NCBI GenBank assembly: GCA_016182545.1
Contig: JACPGG010000007.1
Coordinates: forward strand, 26,170 to 61,822
Direction: 5' to 3'
From: Ignavibacteriales bacterium
GTDB taxonomy: Bacteria; Bacteroidota; Ignavibacteria; UBA10030; UBA8401
Length of the DNA: 35,653 nucleotides
The notes below the pieces were generated by a model that worked only from the letters and a program-made list of their open reading frames with translations, made no database searches and was not told the origin of the DNA. Both the position numbers and the translations under genes were made by a program. This document shows, piece by piece, positions 29,785 to 35,653 of the stretch (the stretch's first letter is position 1; the number at the start of each line of letters is the position of its first letter).

Positions 29785-30270
29785 ATGAAACTATTACTCT
29801 CCCTTTTTTTCTTCGTTACTTTATTATCGGGTCAAGACTATCGGACTCTTGCCGTTGAAACAATTGGCGGCGAAGAAATTTCGATTGAAGAGTTGACCGC
29901 TCGCGGTCCCGTCTTAATCAATTTCTGGGCGCTGTGGTGCGAGCCGTGCAAGATTGAAATGAAGCAATTGCAGTCGTTGTTTGAAAAATACAGAGAGCGG
30001 CACTTTTCCATTGTTGCGGTAAATCAGGATAATCAAAAGAGTGTTGCAAAAGTAGCGTCGTATGTTTCATCGCAGCAATTCACATTTTATGTTGCTCTCG
30101 ATCCGGGAGGTGAAATCGCACAGCAGTTCAACCTGCAGAATATTCCGTTGAGTATCCTGCTCGACAGGAACGGGAAGGTTGCGTACAAAGCGCTCGGATA
30201 CAAACCGGGCGATGAAAAAAAATTGGAGGAAGCAATCTTAGAAACACTTACGGTGGAGAATGTTCAATAA
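29785..30270 (+). CDS. TlpA/ResA-like extracytoplasmic thioredoxin
   Basis: The track uses a TTG at 29764. I prefer ATG 29785, which starts directly with a signal sequence (MKLLLSLFFFVTLLSGQ). The 161-aa protein is a thioredoxin-fold reductase with the active site WCEPC in NFWALWCEPCKIEM and the cis-proline segment NIPLSILLDRNG. Such proteins work outside the cytoplasm on cysteines of cytochromes or other secreted proteins. It overlaps the next gene, a DUF6029 barrel, by 11 nt, so the two are translationally coupled. The substrate is unknown, and the neighbours' cysteine pairs are candidates. Confidence 0.9.
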   Translation: MKLLLSLFFFVTLLSGQDYRTLAVETIGGEEISIEELTARGPVLINFWALWCEPCKIEMKQLQSLFEKYRERHFSIVAVNQDNQKSVAKVASYVSSQQFTFYVALDPGGEIAQQFNLQNIPLSILLDRNGKVAYKALGYKPGDEKKLEEAILETLTVENVQ

Positions 30271-31873
30271 AAGCGGCGGTGCATTACCGATTGTACTCTG
30301 TTTGGTTGCATCACTGGCAAATGCACAATCTGTTACACCGTCTGTTTCAAATATTCTTCGATACGGAAACGGAGAGAGGGGCACGGCAGGATTTTCTCAG
30401 CCGTTCACATACTTTGAAAACCTGACCGATGTACGATTGAATGTTCAGCCGTCGGTCACTGTGGGATTCCGGCTGCTTGTTGATGATCCGCCGGAAATTG
30501 GTGAGAGATTTCAGGGATTCAAGCGTCGATTCATAGAATATCGAGACGAAAATTTTATGCTGCGCGCCGGTAATTTCAACGAACTGTTTGGACGCGGCCT
30601 TGCACTTAATCTTTTTGAAAATCGCGGACTCGCGTACGATTCATGGATGGACGGAGTGAAAGCGCAGTATCAATCATCTTCCGTTTCAGCGACAATAATC
30701 GGAGGAACGCTTGATTTCAGAGATTCGGTGATCATTACGCGCCATGAACGATATTCAATCCGCGGTGCGAACGTGGAACTGAAACCTGTGAAAGGAATTG
30801 TTGTGGGAACAAGTTTCATAGAAACCAAGGGGACTCTTCCGCAATTTGTCGGAAGCAAGGAGATCGCAGCGGAAATTCCGGAAGTATATTCCGCCGTTCG
30901 ATTTGGTCCGTTCCATGGATTCATCGGGTATGCGCATAAGTGGACGAATGTCGTAACCGATACGGTGTCGCAAAAGGGATACGGGATCTACGGATCGCTG
31001 TCATATAATGGAAAGGGATTTGGCATCACCGCGGAGTACAAAGATTACCGGTTCGATATTCGCGATCCGTTCGATCGCGGAGCAAGCGAACGAGCCACAC
31101 GCATGCTGCCGCTGCAGAATCCTCCGATCGTACAGAAGGAACACAATTACACGCTGTTGACCCGCGCCATTCATCAGATCGATTTCAGTGACGAGGTGGG
31201 GCTGCAGGTCGAGGGATTTTATTCGCCATCGTCATCGACAACGCTCAATGTAAATGCAAGTGTCGCGAGCAGGCATCACTACTATGACTACAATACTGCT
31301 TCGTTCTCATTTGCTGAACGGAAACGGGACAACAGTTTGCTTCCATCGCTCGAACGGCAGCTCTCGCCGTACTGGGAATTTTTTGCTGAAGGAGAACATT
31401 ACTACGAAGAACGATCGGCGATCAGGATAGGATTTGCCCGCCGAGCGAATGTTCTCTACAATGATTTTACCGGCGCGCAATTCAGCCATACGCAGCAGGC
31501 GACGATCATTCCGCTGCAGATTCAACATGGTTTGACGGAGGCATATTCTGTCATCGTCCATTCGGAACATGAATTTGCGTACGACAGTTACAACTCGAGC
31601 AACGAACATTTTTATACACAGATGCTGACCATCATCGTTACGCGCTCGCCGGATTTTTCATTCTCCGCGCGGTATGAGCACACGACAGATACGGCGGATC
31701 CGTCGGGAAGACGCGATTGGTTCGTTGGTGAAATAGGATATACCTTCGGACAGTCTCACACGACAACCGTATCATACGGTAGAGAACGGGGAGGACAGGT
31801 CTGTTCCAACGGTGTTTGCCAGTACCAATTGCCGTTTGAGGGAGTGAGGTTTACATTGAGAAGCATCATTTAA
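30260..31873 (+). CDS. DUF6029-type outer-membrane beta-barrel protein
   Basis: The 537-aa protein has a signal peptide (MFNKSGGALPIVLCLVASLA, then NAQ). The rest is rich in alternating aromatic beta strands, for example YGIYGSLSYNGKGFGITAEY and WFVGEIGYTFGQSHTTTVSY, as in outer-membrane barrels. LRAGNFNELFGRGLALNLFE resembles the DUF6029 family known from Bacteroidota. The only clear cysteine pair in the mature part is CSNGVC near the C-terminus, a CX4C that could form a disulphide. Start ATG 30260 has a GGTGGAGA ribosome site and overlaps the thioredoxin gene. The function is unknown. Confidence 0.8.
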   Translation: MFNKSGGALPIVLCLVASLANAQSVTPSVSNILRYGNGERGTAGFSQPFTYFENLTDVRLNVQPSVTVGFRLLVDDPPEIGERFQGFKRRFIEYRDENFMLRAGNFNELFGRGLALNLFENRGLAYDSWMDGVKAQYQSSSVSATIIGGTLDFRDSVIITRHERYSIRGANVELKPVKGIVVGTSFIETKGTLPQFVGSKEIAAEIPEVYSAVRFGPFHGFIGYAHKWTNVVTDTVSQKGYGIYGSLSYNGKGFGITAEYKDYRFDIRDPFDRGASERATRMLPLQNPPIVQKEHNYTLLTRAIHQIDFSDEVGLQVEGFYSPSSSTTLNVNASVASRHHYYDYNTASFSFAERKRDNSLLPSLERQLSPYWEFFAEGEHYYEERSAIRIGFARRANVLYNDFTGAQFSHTQQATIIPLQIQHGLTEAYSVIVHSEHEFAYDSYNSSNEHFYTQMLTIIVTRSPDFSFSARYEHTTDTADPSGRRDWFVGEIGYTFGQSHTTTVSYGRERGGQVCSNGVCQYQLPFEGVRFTLRSII

Positions 31874-31942
31874 TTTATAGAGAGCGGCTATTCGACAAGT
31901 CATTATTTGACACATCTATCGGATGGCTTGAGAGGAGAAACT

Positions 31943-32944
31943 ATGAAGATCATTCTTGTAATTTGTAGCTTATTGTGTGTTGCTTCAACATACACACTTG
32001 CATCCCAGCGGAACGTGCTCGTTGAAATGTTCACCAATTCACATTGCACTGTATGCCCCGGAGCGCACACAGCGTTGAATTCGTTCGCCTCCACAAGTCC
32101 GAATGCCGGCAGAGTGCGGTATATTTTTTATCATACGCTGTTTCCGTACTCGGACGATCAGCTCGCACAAGCAAACACGACGGAGCCAGCGTCGCGCAAT
32201 TCCTATTACAACGGACCGACATCGACGCCGAATACATTTTTCGACGGCATCAATCAAGGAAGGACATACTCGTCGTTCGCCGCAAGTCTTGACGCACGCA
32301 TGTCAACTGAAAGTCCCGTTGAAATAATGTTGAGCGGAAGTAAAAATGGAATAACACTCTCCGTTTCAGCCTCATTGAAGAAGACCGGAATGATCAACGA
32401 AACAGACCTGGTCGCGCATATCATTGCCGTAGAACATGTCTCGTACGTCGGCTATGTGATGAGAAAAATGCTGACGGGAACATCGGGACAATCGTTTCAG
32501 TTCGATCAGTCGAACAATGCCGTTGTCACCTCGTCGGCAACACTCGGTAACGTTTCGGATATCTCAAAGACCGGTATTGTCGTTTTTATTCAAAGCACAT
32601 CAACGAAAACAGTGTATCAATCGGAGTATATTGCATATTCAACTTTAACGGGAGCAAAGGACGGGAAACAGAATACTCCACGGTCGTTTGAACTGAATCA
32701 AAACTTTCCAAATCCGTTCAATCCGGAAACGACGATACAATATTCCGTACCGACATCATCGCATGTTGTTGTATCTGTCTATGACGTTCTGGGAAACCGT
32801 GTGGCGACGTTGGTTGATAAACAGCAGCCGGCTCAGACGTACACAATACAATTTGACGGATCGCGGTTTTCCAGCGGCGTATATCTCTATAAATTGACCG
32901 TGAACGGTATGTCGCTGACGCGACGAATGATGCTGATAAAATAA
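31943..32944 (+). CDS. Omp28-like protein with CxxC motif and type IX secretion sorting domain
   Basis: I choose ATG 31943 over the track start 31907 because GAGGAGA precedes it and the protein then begins with a signal peptide (MKIILVICSLLCVASTYTLA). The mature part starts with a thioredoxin-like segment, VLVEMFTNSHCTVCPGAH. The remainder fits the Omp28-related family. The last roughly 80 residues are a type A T9SS sorting domain: NFPNPFNPETTIQYSVP, then VYDVLGNRVATLV and SSGVYLYKLT. The protein should cross the outer membrane by T9SS and have the domain removed or anchored. The 333-aa length is intact. It follows the DUF6029 gene by 69 nt. Confidence 0.9.
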   Translation: MKIILVICSLLCVASTYTLASQRNVLVEMFTNSHCTVCPGAHTALNSFASTSPNAGRVRYIFYHTLFPYSDDQLAQANTTEPASRNSYYNGPTSTPNTFFDGINQGRTYSSFAASLDARMSTESPVEIMLSGSKNGITLSVSASLKKTGMINETDLVAHIIAVEHVSYVGYVMRKMLTGTSGQSFQFDQSNNAVVTSSATLGNVSDISKTGIVVFIQSTSTKTVYQSEYIAYSTLTGAKDGKQNTPRSFELNQNFPNPFNPETTIQYSVPTSSHVVVSVYDVLGNRVATLVDKQQPAQTYTIQFDGSRFSSGVYLYKLTVNGMSLTRRMMLIK

Positions 32945-33000: not shown

Positions 33001-33726
33001 ATGTCAAAATATATGAAACACGTACTCGTCATTGAAGACGATAAAGATATCACCGGACTTCTCGATATTCATTTAAAGGACTTGAACTGTAAAGTCACGA
33101 TCGTGCACGACGGCGAAAAAGGATTCAACAACATCGTGAAGAACAAATACGATCTTGTTGTACTCGATGTGATGCTCCCCAAGATGGACGGGCTTGAAGT
33201 GTGCAGAAAAGTACGTGCTGAGAAGAACAACACACCGATCCTGATGCTCACCGCAAAATCAGAAGAGTTGGATAAAGTGCTCGGACTGGAGGTCGGCGCC
33301 GATGATTATCTCACCAAACCGTTCAGCGTGCGAGAGTTCATCGCGCGGGTGAAGGCGATGTTCCGCAGAATGGAAGCGATGCAAAGCGAAACAAAAACCG
33401 GCGATGCATCAGCACTCCTCTCATTTGGTGAACTGGAAATCGATCGTGACCGACGGAAGGTACTCTTAAGCGGCAAGCGCCTCGATCTGACAGCGAAAGA
33501 GTTCGATCTGCTCGTACTTTTTGCAAGCCATCCCGGTAAAACGTACACGCGCGAACAATTGCTGGAATTGGTATGGGGATATCAGTTCAACGGATACGAT
33601 CATACGGTCAACTCGCATATCAATCGTCTGCGGTCAAAGATCGAGAAGGATATGTCGAAACCGAAATATATTTTGACGGCGTGGGGAGTGGGGTATAGAT
33701 TCGCGGAACTGGAAGAGATCTCTTAG
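33001..33726 (+). CDS. OmpR/PhoB-family response regulator
   Basis: The 241-aa protein has a receiver domain: acidic pocket VIEDDKD, phosphoacceptor Asp in LVVLDVMLPKMDG near residue 54, Thr in MLTAK, and Lys in DYLTKPF. A C-terminal winged-helix DNA-binding domain follows (LTAKEFDLLVLFASHPGKTY, then GYDHTVNSHINRLRSKIE). Start codons at 33001 and 33013 are both possible; neither has a clear ribosome site. The cognate kinase follows after about 105 nt that contain a dispersed repeat. Target genes are unknown. Confidence 0.95.
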   Translation: MSKYMKHVLVIEDDKDITGLLDIHLKDLNCKVTIVHDGEKGFNNIVKNKYDLVVLDVMLPKMDGLEVCRKVRAEKNNTPILMLTAKSEELDKVLGLEVGADDYLTKPFSVREFIARVKAMFRRMEAMQSETKTGDASALLSFGELEIDRDRRKVLLSGKRLDLTAKEFDLLVLFASHPGKTYTREQLLELVWGYQFNGYDHTVNSHINRLRSKIEKDMSKPKYILTAWGVGYRFAELEEIS

Positions 33727-33749
33727 ACATAAGTATGTCAGTATTTAGA

Positions 33750-33819
33750 TGTCTGTTGTCAGCGGTTATTAAATACTCGATGCTGGATACTTGATACTGA
33801 CTACTGATTGCTGACTACT
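33750..33819. repeat. Dispersed CTGGATACT…GACTACT repeat, copy 2
   Basis: CTGGATACTTGATACTGACT and the following ACTGATTGCTGACTACT match the repeat at 5994-6017. A TCAGCGGT segment is upstream in both copies. It ends 12 nt before the histidine kinase start, leaving no clear ribosome site for that gene. Confidence 0.6.
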
Positions 33820-33831
33820 CTAAAAAAGCCA

Positions 33832-35310
33832 ATGACCAAACTTTTTCAAAGTCTCTACTGGAAAATATCCGCGACGTTTGTTGCGCTGCTGTTCATCCTC
33901 GGCGCGATTTATATCTACGTCGTCGCATTCTCCGCGGAGATGTACTTTCAGGAAGCCAACCAGCGGCTGAATGCGCGCGTTGCGCAGCGGATGCTGAACT
34001 ATTATAAACCGCTTGTCAATCATCAGCTCGATTCGGTACGCCTGGAGGAAATTTACACGATCCAGAAGATCTTTAATCCCAGTATCGAAGTGTATGTGCT
34101 CGATACGCTCGGCAACATCGTCTCGCACTGCCCCACCAATCAGCATATTCAGTGCGAATCGGTTTCCGTCGAACCGATCAGGAAATTTGTCGGCTTGAAA
34201 ACTCCGGAATTTCTCGAAGGTGAAGACCCGAAGAAACTCGGCATTAAGAAGACTTTTTCCGCTGCAAAAATAACCGACGGAGAGAAACTGATCGGGTATC
34301 TGTATGTCATTCTCGGCAGCGAAGAGTTCGACAGCAATTTCAACCTGTTGATCGGCAGTTACATTCTCCGCATCGGCGCACGGACAACGACGATCACATT
34401 GATCGGTGCTGCGGTCATTGGATTGATTGCTCTTCTCTACATTACAAAAAATCTGAGGACCATCATCCGAACAGTGCACGAATTTAAGAAGGGGAATTAC
34501 AACGCCCGCATTCAGCTTTCGTCCACGGGAGAGTTGAACGAACTGGCGACTTCCTTCAACGAAATGGCGGACACGATCGTCAAGAATCTGGAGGAGATCA
34601 AAACGATGGATTCGCTGCGGCGAGAACTTGTCGCCAATGTGTCGCACGATCTCCGTACACCGCTTTCAACGATTCACGGCTATATCGAAACGCTCATGAT
34701 CAAAACGGAATCATTGACGAAAGACGAGAGAGAGCAGTACTTGAAAACCGTTCTTACAAGCACGGAGCGGCTGAGGAAACTCGTTGAAGAATTGTTCGAA
34801 CTATCCAAACTCGAAGCGAAACAGACCAAGCCGAATCCGGAGCCGTTCTCCATTTCCGAACTTGTGCAGGACATCGGACAGAAGTATCTCATCATAGCCG
34901 AGAAAAAAGGAATTACGTTTCAGTGTGTTTTTCCAAAAGACCTGCCGATGATCGTAGCGGATATTGCGTTGATCGACCGCGTCATTCAAAATCTTGTCGA
35001 CAACGCAATCAAGTTCACGCCATCCGGCGGCATTGTGCGGATTGAGCTCCACCGGCTTTCCGACGGAGTTGACGTAAAAATTTCGGATACAGGTTCAGGA
35101 ATTCTGCCTGAAGATATCCCCAATATATTCGACCGCTACAATAAGGGGAGTCAGAAAAATATTTTCCAAAACGACGGCGCCGGGCTCGGTCTCGCAATTG
35201 TAAAAAAGATCCTTGAAGTCCACAGTCTTACCATCGACGTTGACAGCAAGGTGAACGAGGGAACCGCCTTTTCATTCACATTGCCTGTGCACGTAAGTCA
35301 TCCTCACTAA
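33832..35310 (+). CDS. HAMP-domain sensor histidine kinase
   Basis: The track starts at a TTG (33808) inside a repeat. I prefer ATG 33832, giving 492 aa. Domain order: membrane span near residues 12-32, an extracytoplasmic sensor segment of about 160 residues, a second span (TLIGAAVIGLIALLYI), and HAMP. The dimerisation/phosphotransfer helix contains NVSHDLRTPLSTIHGY, and the ATPase domain has NLVDNAIKFTP (N box), DTGSGI (G1) and GAGLGLAIVKKI (G2). It pairs with the response regulator upstream. The signal sensed is unknown. Confidence 0.94.
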   Translation: MTKLFQSLYWKISATFVALLFILGAIYIYVVAFSAEMYFQEANQRLNARVAQRMLNYYKPLVNHQLDSVRLEEIYTIQKIFNPSIEVYVLDTLGNIVSHCPTNQHIQCESVSVEPIRKFVGLKTPEFLEGEDPKKLGIKKTFSAAKITDGEKLIGYLYVILGSEEFDSNFNLLIGSYILRIGARTTTITLIGAAVIGLIALLYITKNLRTIIRTVHEFKKGNYNARIQLSSTGELNELATSFNEMADTIVKNLEEIKTMDSLRRELVANVSHDLRTPLSTIHGYIETLMIKTESLTKDEREQYLKTVLTSTERLRKLVEELFELSKLEAKQTKPNPEPFSISELVQDIGQKYLIIAEKKGITFQCVFPKDLPMIVADIALIDRVIQNLVDNAIKFTPSGGIVRIELHRLSDGVDVKISDTGSGILPEDIPNIFDRYNKGSQKNIFQNDGAGLGLAIVKKILEVHSLTIDVDSKVNEGTAFSFTLPVHVSHPH

Positions 35311-35359
35311 ATCATCCTTGTAAACCATCGTTTGAATTTCTATTTTGAATCACCCGAAT

Positions 35360-35653
35360 ATGGAACGTTCAAACAGCGAAATCACCCGATGGGTACGGCT
35401 CTACACAAAAGACCTGCTTGCATGGGCGCGACGGAAGGTTGTTGATGTTCAAATTGCAGAAGACTTAGTGCAGGATACTTTTGTTGCTGCAGTAGAACAG
35501 TTCGCTGCATTCCGAAAAGAAAGCCAGCCGAAAACATGGCTCATTTCGATCTTAAACAATAAAATATCTGAATACTACCGGTCCAAATCAAAATTGCCTG
35601 TTTATCCCTCCGGCGTTGATTCGACGTTGGAACATTTCTTTGCACCGGACGGT
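35360..35653 (+). CDS. ECF-type RNA polymerase sigma factor, truncated by window edge
   Basis: This frame is absent from the track because it runs off the end. From ATG 35360 there are 98 open codons. The protein shows the sigma-70 region 2 pattern typical of small ECF factors: RRKVVDVQIAEDLVQDTFVA, AVEQFAAFRKES, then TWLISILNNKISEYYRSK. Region 4 lies beyond the window. It begins 49 nt after the histidine kinase. An anti-sigma factor gene would be expected further downstream, but that cannot be seen here. Confidence 0.88.
   Translation, partial: MERSNSEITRWVRLYTKDLLAWARRKVVDVQIAEDLVQDTFVAAVEQFAAFRKESQPKTWLISILNNKISEYYRSKSKLPVYPSGVDSTLEHFFAPDG

Follow-up and report, generated by a model that had tools for sequence, protein, structure and literature searches.

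The three-gene set

The window considered here is the whole 35,653-nucleotide stretch that was analysed from an Ignavibacteriales bacterium of the class Ignavibacteria, phylum Bacteroidota (assembly GCA_016182545.1, contig JACPGG010000007.1, positions 26,170 to 61,822 of the forward strand). At positions 29785-32944 of its forward strand lie three consecutive genes for a TlpA-like thioredoxin, a DUF6029 beta-barrel protein and an Omp28-like protein. An earlier note on this DNA had reported that the first gene overlaps the second, that the barrel carries a cysteine pair near its end, and that the third protein combines a CxxC motif with a type IX sorting domain. This observation is confirmed, and it is not due to chance, since the cysteine pair is invariant in relatives and the gene order recurs.

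The first gene (29785-30270) encodes a TlpA/ResA-like periplasmic thioredoxin of 161 amino acids with a cleavable-looking signal and no lipobox, which matches the Pfam families Redoxin (74 bits) and AhpC-TSA and scores 90.8 bits against NCBIfam ResA, under the cut-off of 170. It has the features of the TlpA/ResA type, namely export, the thioredoxin fold, a WCxxC active site, read from the DNA as WCEPC at 29935-29949, and a cis-proline, P121. Among 58 thioredoxins from such trios, W51, C52, C55 and P121 (the cis-proline position) are invariant, and a lipobox is found in none.

The last 11 nucleotides of this gene, read from the DNA at 30260-30270, are shared with the barrel gene (30260-31873). 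The 537-amino-acid product belongs to DUF6029 (PF19494; 122.8 bits against a Pfam cut-off of 27) and is predicted by AlphaFold and Foldseek to be an outer-membrane beta-barrel of about 24 strands. Its cysteine pair, CSNGVC (C515 and C520), is read from the DNA at 31802-31819 and in the model sits on a loop and beta-hairpin, residues 510-525 (31787-31834), between the last two strands.

The third gene (31943-32944) encodes a protein of 333 amino acids with the redox motif HCTVC (C35, C38), read from the DNA at 32042-32056, and a Por_Secre_tail sorting domain of the type IX secretion system (T9SS) at 32705-32932 (Pfam E=4.6e-10; type A sorting domain TIGR04183 of NCBIfam, 41.7 bits against a cut-off of 23), by which it is most likely bound for the surface. 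By sequence it misses the Omp28 cut-off (NF033782: 40.5 bits, where 150 are required; no PF11551 match at E<=0.01), and its relationship is read from the fold; the model and the alignment give it the thioredoxin-like fold, CxxC and cis-proline of the Omp28 type. In a 27-row alignment, C35, C38, H64, P96, E164 and R174 are invariant.

DUF6029 and the Omp28 domain each occur in a single copy in the organism's own genome, where more than 130 further matches to the Omp28-like protein cover mainly the T9SS tail, and two DsbD_TM/CcdA genes lie elsewhere in that genome.

Invariance of the barrel's cysteine pair

The survey detected DUF6029 in 149 of 245 genomes of the class; at the level of the phylum the figure was 80 of 297. 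The 108 full-length barrels of the class have exactly two conserved cysteine columns, both invariant (108/108), and 78 of these proteins have no cysteine after residue 30 other than this CX4C pair. When partial barrels of the class are included, the motif is present in 110 of 111, the exception being truncated so that it cannot be judged. It is retained in 20/20 further barrels from other families and in 44/44 more, 3 of them duplicates, which gives 171/171 barrels having an intact C-terminus. The pair nearly always takes the form C-x-x-G-[IV]-C, and its invariance contrasts with a mean column identity of only 33% across a 30-row barrel alignment.

Gene neighbourhood and co-occurrence

For the neighbourhood survey, 111 loci of the class were used, in which the TlpA side could be evaluated in 107 and the Omp28 side in 109; an Omp28 neighbour was counted only if it possessed a CxxC, and matches to the T9SS tail alone were excluded. 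A TlpA gene lies directly upstream of the barrel in 81/107 loci, compared with a TlpA-like background of 4/750 among the other flanking genes, and a CxxC Omp28 gene lies directly downstream in 83/109. Both are adjacent in 59 of the 111 loci, and at least one TlpA-barrel pair occurs in 17/18 families of the class. The trio also recurs across the phylum Bacteroidota when the phylum-wide loci are considered together with those of the class. In a sample of 149 genomes, all 88 with DUF6029 encode Omp28, 11 (most of them weak matches) have Omp28 alone, and 50 have neither (Fisher p=3e-29, with kinship ignored). The earlier note had set this survey and the conservation of CX4C beforehand as tests on which its reading could fail, and neither refutes it.

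The export route of the third protein varies, since some families have a T9SS tail and others a lipoprotein-type signal, and in a Flavobacteriaceae-like family (f41) the place of Omp28 is held by a Redoxin lipoprotein together with a second Redoxin with a T9SS tail. Judged from these sequences, the constant element of the third position is a thioredoxin-type protein predicted to be bound for the surface.

Several variants of the arrangement were also seen. Three families (f6, f21, f22) have TlpA, with ribonuclease G-like genes downstream of the barrel; in L077, L086, L088, L102, L106 and others, the gene that directly follows the barrel and replaces Omp28 is a CPTC-bearing ribonuclease G-like gene. 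In many genomes of family f20 (L003-L030), a tetratricopeptide repeat-like protein of 208-216 amino acids occupies the upstream place of the missing TlpA. The Flavobacteriaceae-like loci L127-L130 have a TonB-dependent receptor after the set (identified by Pfam in L128) and in some cases a PD40 propeller gene before it, and a DCAVC motif is present in L128-L130. On the other side of the set, loci L173, L174, L175 and L177 carry divergent lipoprotein genes with WCGWC, WCGYC or WCIYC, that of L173 being Omp28 by Pfam, and the third protein of L175 joins a choice-of-anchor J domain to Omp28.

In the window, the set adjoins MarC, glutaminase and carboxylesterase genes on its upstream side and a two-component system downstream; positions 33001-35653 hold an OmpR-type response regulator and a histidine kinase, followed by the start of an extracytoplasmic function (ECF) sigma-like gene that breaks off at the window end.

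Fusion, electron suppliers and REPLACEMENTS

TlpA and DUF6029 are fused in a single open frame of 667-678 amino acids in two species that belong to the same genus (L115/L148, with coordinates L115:4530-6533, 667 amino acids; and L145:1492-3528, 678 amino acids). In the L115 fusion, TlpA corresponds to residues 21-152 and DUF6029 begins at 158, with no signal sequence between them.

Genes of the kind that supply electrons to periplasmic thioredoxins adjoin the set in some lineages. Family f36 includes three genomes in which DsbD is encoded directly downstream of the barrel; its domains were confirmed by Pfam in L113 and L180, and the downstream gene of L181 starts with the same protein as these two. 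Four other loci (L056, L061, L066 and L067) have a CcdA-like gene immediately before that of TlpA, with DsbD_TM above the Pfam cut-off in L056, and in L061, L066 and L067 the CcdA-like gene is preceded by that of a small thioredoxin with NC[IV]PC. The set itself differs from CcdA/DsbD-type relays, in which the relay protein has a DsbD_TM domain: it has a barrel instead, and DsbD_TM occurs in the neighbours of some loci.

The TlpA proteins of these four loci have WCPSC in place of WCxPC. In separate trees of TlpA, the barrel and Omp28, the four form one clade with identical branching, (L061,(L056,(L066,L067))), even though the L061 genome belongs to another family and also retains a native copy of the set, which argues that the set moves horizontally as a unit. 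No plasmid-borne copies of the set were found in the survey. The L061 and L067 copies sit in arsenic islands with ArsR-type regulators, an ArsP_1 permease, a methyltransferase, an ArsC-like low-molecular-weight phosphatase and an ACR3-like SBF-family transporter, and the copy shared by the four loci is possibly an arsenic-tolerant duplicate.

A selenocysteine codon in the L066 Omp28 gene was considered and rejected: the reading frame is disrupted after an intact LCVAC (L066:3479-3800), probably by an assembly error, and a read-through search of all loci found TGA at no active-site cysteine.

Structure models

The AlphaFold model of the barrel (predicted local distance difference test, pLDDT, 90.4; predicted template modelling score, pTM, 0.83) has about 24 strands, and its Foldseek matches in the PDB are outer-membrane barrels, with FimD at the top and also BtuB and the copper transporter OprC. 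The last modelled strands are 500-509, 512-516, 519-523 and 526-536. Nearly all short turns lie on the side of the modelled barrel where its termini are, and the CX4C hairpin, residues 510-525, is at the opposite end. Since both termini are periplasmic in known outer-membrane barrels, the CX4C is predicted to be extracellular. The turn N517-G518 lies between C515 and C520, which would face each other as a cross-strand disulfide, a type of bond that is often redox-labile. FimD, which also has 24 strands, lets folded domains through, so it is sterically conceivable that the small TlpA could enter the lumen.

In the model of the Omp28-like protein (pLDDT 86.6), the CxxC precedes a helix (38-51) and the invariant P96 precedes a strand, as in thioredoxins. 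Its Foldseek matches in the PDB include HBP35 (5y1a, E=9e-16) and the Omp28 domain of Porphyromonas gingivalis (2r2c, TMt 0.74, root-mean-square deviation 2.6). An Omp28-related protein of P. clara (00502) was not used as support, as it is described as having WD40 and immunoglobulin domains (PMC9477747).

A proposed thiol relay and its alternatives

The three proteins very probably function together in thiol-disulfide chemistry. On balance, we favour the reading that the trio is a dedicated outer-membrane thiol-disulfide module whose relay reaches the surface through the barrel. In such a relay, electrons would pass from inner-membrane CcdA or DsbD to periplasmic TlpA. TlpA would then dock at, or move into, the periplasmic opening of the DUF6029 barrel with its 24 strands and reduce the invariant disulfide of the CX4C, which the hairpin carries at the outer end. 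The CX4C pair would then reduce the CxxC of the surface thioredoxin-fold protein, held by the T9SS tail here and as a lipoprotein elsewhere, and this protein would reduce extracellular or surface disulfides. We infer which way the electrons flow, that TlpA enters the lumen, the individual exchange steps and the final substrate; the relay is probably reductive and directed outward, given that CcdA and DsbD genes lie next to the set and that its TlpA is of the ResA type. The more specific proposal that the barrel acts as a thiol-electron conduit, in which a periplasmic thioredoxin within the lumen reduces a disulfide at the outer rim and so keeps surface thioredoxins reduced, is tentative and falls slightly short of an even chance.

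The earlier note had suggested either a cysteine relay or a chaperone set that matures the Omp28 protein. The first suggestion has gained from the conservation, the fusion, the replacement of Omp28 and the CcdA and DsbD neighbours, and these neighbours now favour a reductive direction, while the passage through the barrel keeps its conditional standing. The second, the main rival, is less likely. According to it, TlpA would act in the periplasm, forming or isomerising disulfides in both the barrel and Omp28 ahead of their insertion or export, after which these two would work together in another role, such as a receptor or lidded porin. We regard this as unlikely, though it is the best of the alternatives: all three proteins contain a cysteine pair, the genes for TlpA and the barrel share 11 nucleotides and in two species are joined into one, and exported thioredoxins can oxidise in a foreign periplasm, as HBP35 complements an Escherichia coli dsbA mutant (PMC2907840). 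The neighbouring CcdA and DsbD, however, are reductive suppliers, VKOR was not found in the organism's own genome (88% complete), and the permanent fusion of a maturation factor to a single client would be unusual. Moreover, Omp28 retains a thioredoxin-type active site, with CxxC and the cis-proline position, and therefore looks like an enzyme and not only a client.

It is still less probable that the set serves substrate uptake, with the barrel importing a thiol- or metal-containing compound that Omp28, as a surface lid, binds or reduces and whose reduction TlpA finishes inside. A surface lipoprotein with a barrel does resemble the SusCD and BtuBG layouts, the Foldseek matches include the import barrels BtuB and OprC, one copy lies in arsenic islands, and a TonB receptor follows the set in the Flavobacteriaceae-like loci. 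But no recurrent inner-membrane transporter was seen adjoining the set, whose recurrent direct neighbours are thiol-redox proteins, and the third protein switches family yet keeps a thioredoxin-type fold.

Two further readings are very improbable. In one, the barrel cysteines would form a disulfide with periplasmic GldK/PorK, as in SprF and PorG, and the barrel would be moved on gliding/T9SS tracks; such bonds are formed by Bacteroidota outer-membrane proteins whose cysteines lie close to the C-terminus (PMC12635249), but the SprF pair lies in a periplasmic C-terminal tail, whereas the DUF6029 pair precedes a full final strand, predicted at 526-536, and so falls on the opposite membrane face, and the thioredoxin neighbours would be left unexplained. 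In the other, DUF6029 would be a polysaccharide export barrel, Wzi-like by HHpred similarity, with the cysteines only stapling the last loop, as this function was suggested for the family in PMC9603273; none of the annotated recurrent neighbour clusters is a polysaccharide export gene, and here too the thioredoxin partners would lack an explanation. A haem conduit is rejected, as the motifs CEPCK, CSNGVCQ and CTVCP contain no CXXCH, which MtrCAB-type conduits require.

Several points weigh against a relay through the barrel. A conserved disulfide can be purely structural, and the position and pairing of C515 and C520 are read from the strands assigned in the model and from their parity. Some nanometres separate the barrel's outer end from the periplasm, with no conserved cysteine between, and contact would therefore require either that TlpA moves into the lumen or that the hairpin bends inward. 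None of the 13 loci of family f20 has TlpA next to the barrel, though Omp28 is present, an adjacent Omp28 is missing in five families (f6, f18, f21, f22, f23), and the exceptions are lineage-wide. The CcdA gene of L061 is under the Pfam reporting limit, and the CcdA link in the arsenic islands could be partly context, as CcdA and a thioredoxin occur in ars operons and, in the available passages, are known there without the set (PMC2963123). Nevertheless, the neighbourhood, the cysteines, the fusion, the CcdA and DsbD genes and the replacement of Omp28 all point to a thiol relay, and a relay through the barrel is the interpretation that takes all the observations into account.

Relation to known systems

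The chemistry of the proposed relay is of a known kind, and its barrel and surface stages are new. The relays from DsbD/CcdA to TlpA/CcmG are likewise chains of CxxC proteins that pass electrons outward, with a TlpA of the type fed by CcdA/DsbD, but they end in the periplasm, whereas the trio adds a barrel with a cysteine pair and a surface thioredoxin. MtrCAB-type porin-cytochrome conduits, which are haem wires, share the layout of a periplasmic redox protein, a large barrel and a surface redox protein; the trio uses thiols instead. The thioredoxin-like domain is also present in P. gingivalis Omp28 (2r2c) and in NCBIfam lipoprot_Omp28, and several families usually have the lipoprotein form as their third gene. 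The protein of the window differs in that it is below the NCBIfam cut-off and has a T9SS tail instead of a lipobox.

In Streptococcus pneumoniae, Etrx1/Etrx2, CcdA and MsrAB2 form a system that is also driven by CcdA and has surface-exposed thioredoxin lipoproteins, but in this Gram-positive organism there is no outer membrane to cross and no barrel partner (PMC3914529). HBP35 of P. gingivalis, the best fold match of the third protein, is likewise a T9SS-type surface thioredoxin; the recombinant protein loses its thioredoxin activity on C48S/C51S, a modified form is found on the cell surface, and the available passages name no reductant, barrel or TlpA (PMC2907840). The CcdA-thioredoxin pair of ars operons is the same pair as that found here beside ars genes, and the passages available on it describe no TlpA-DUF6029-Omp28 set (PMC2963123).

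The earlier note had known of no described system of this composition, and our literature searches, which covered only a minority of subscription papers, agree: none was returned for a trans-outer-membrane thiol relay or for Omp28 with a selenoprotein, only unrelated Helicobacter and Brucella papers for Omp28 with TlpA, and DUF6029 is named only in PMC9603273.

Implications

Surface thioredoxins of Bacteroidota, such as HBP35, which is active in vitro, need an electron source beyond the outer membrane, and the passages available on HBP35 name none; the trio is a concrete candidate for such a source. It also provides DUF6029, a widespread family that has no assigned function, with a candidate role. 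The second copy in arsenic islands might be explained by the relay, because trivalent arsenic attacks such dithiols. To our knowledge, a relay through the barrel, if true, would be the first case in which proteins carry thiol reducing power across the outer membrane of a bacterium, and it would mean that a thiol conduit is spread across the phylum Bacteroidota.

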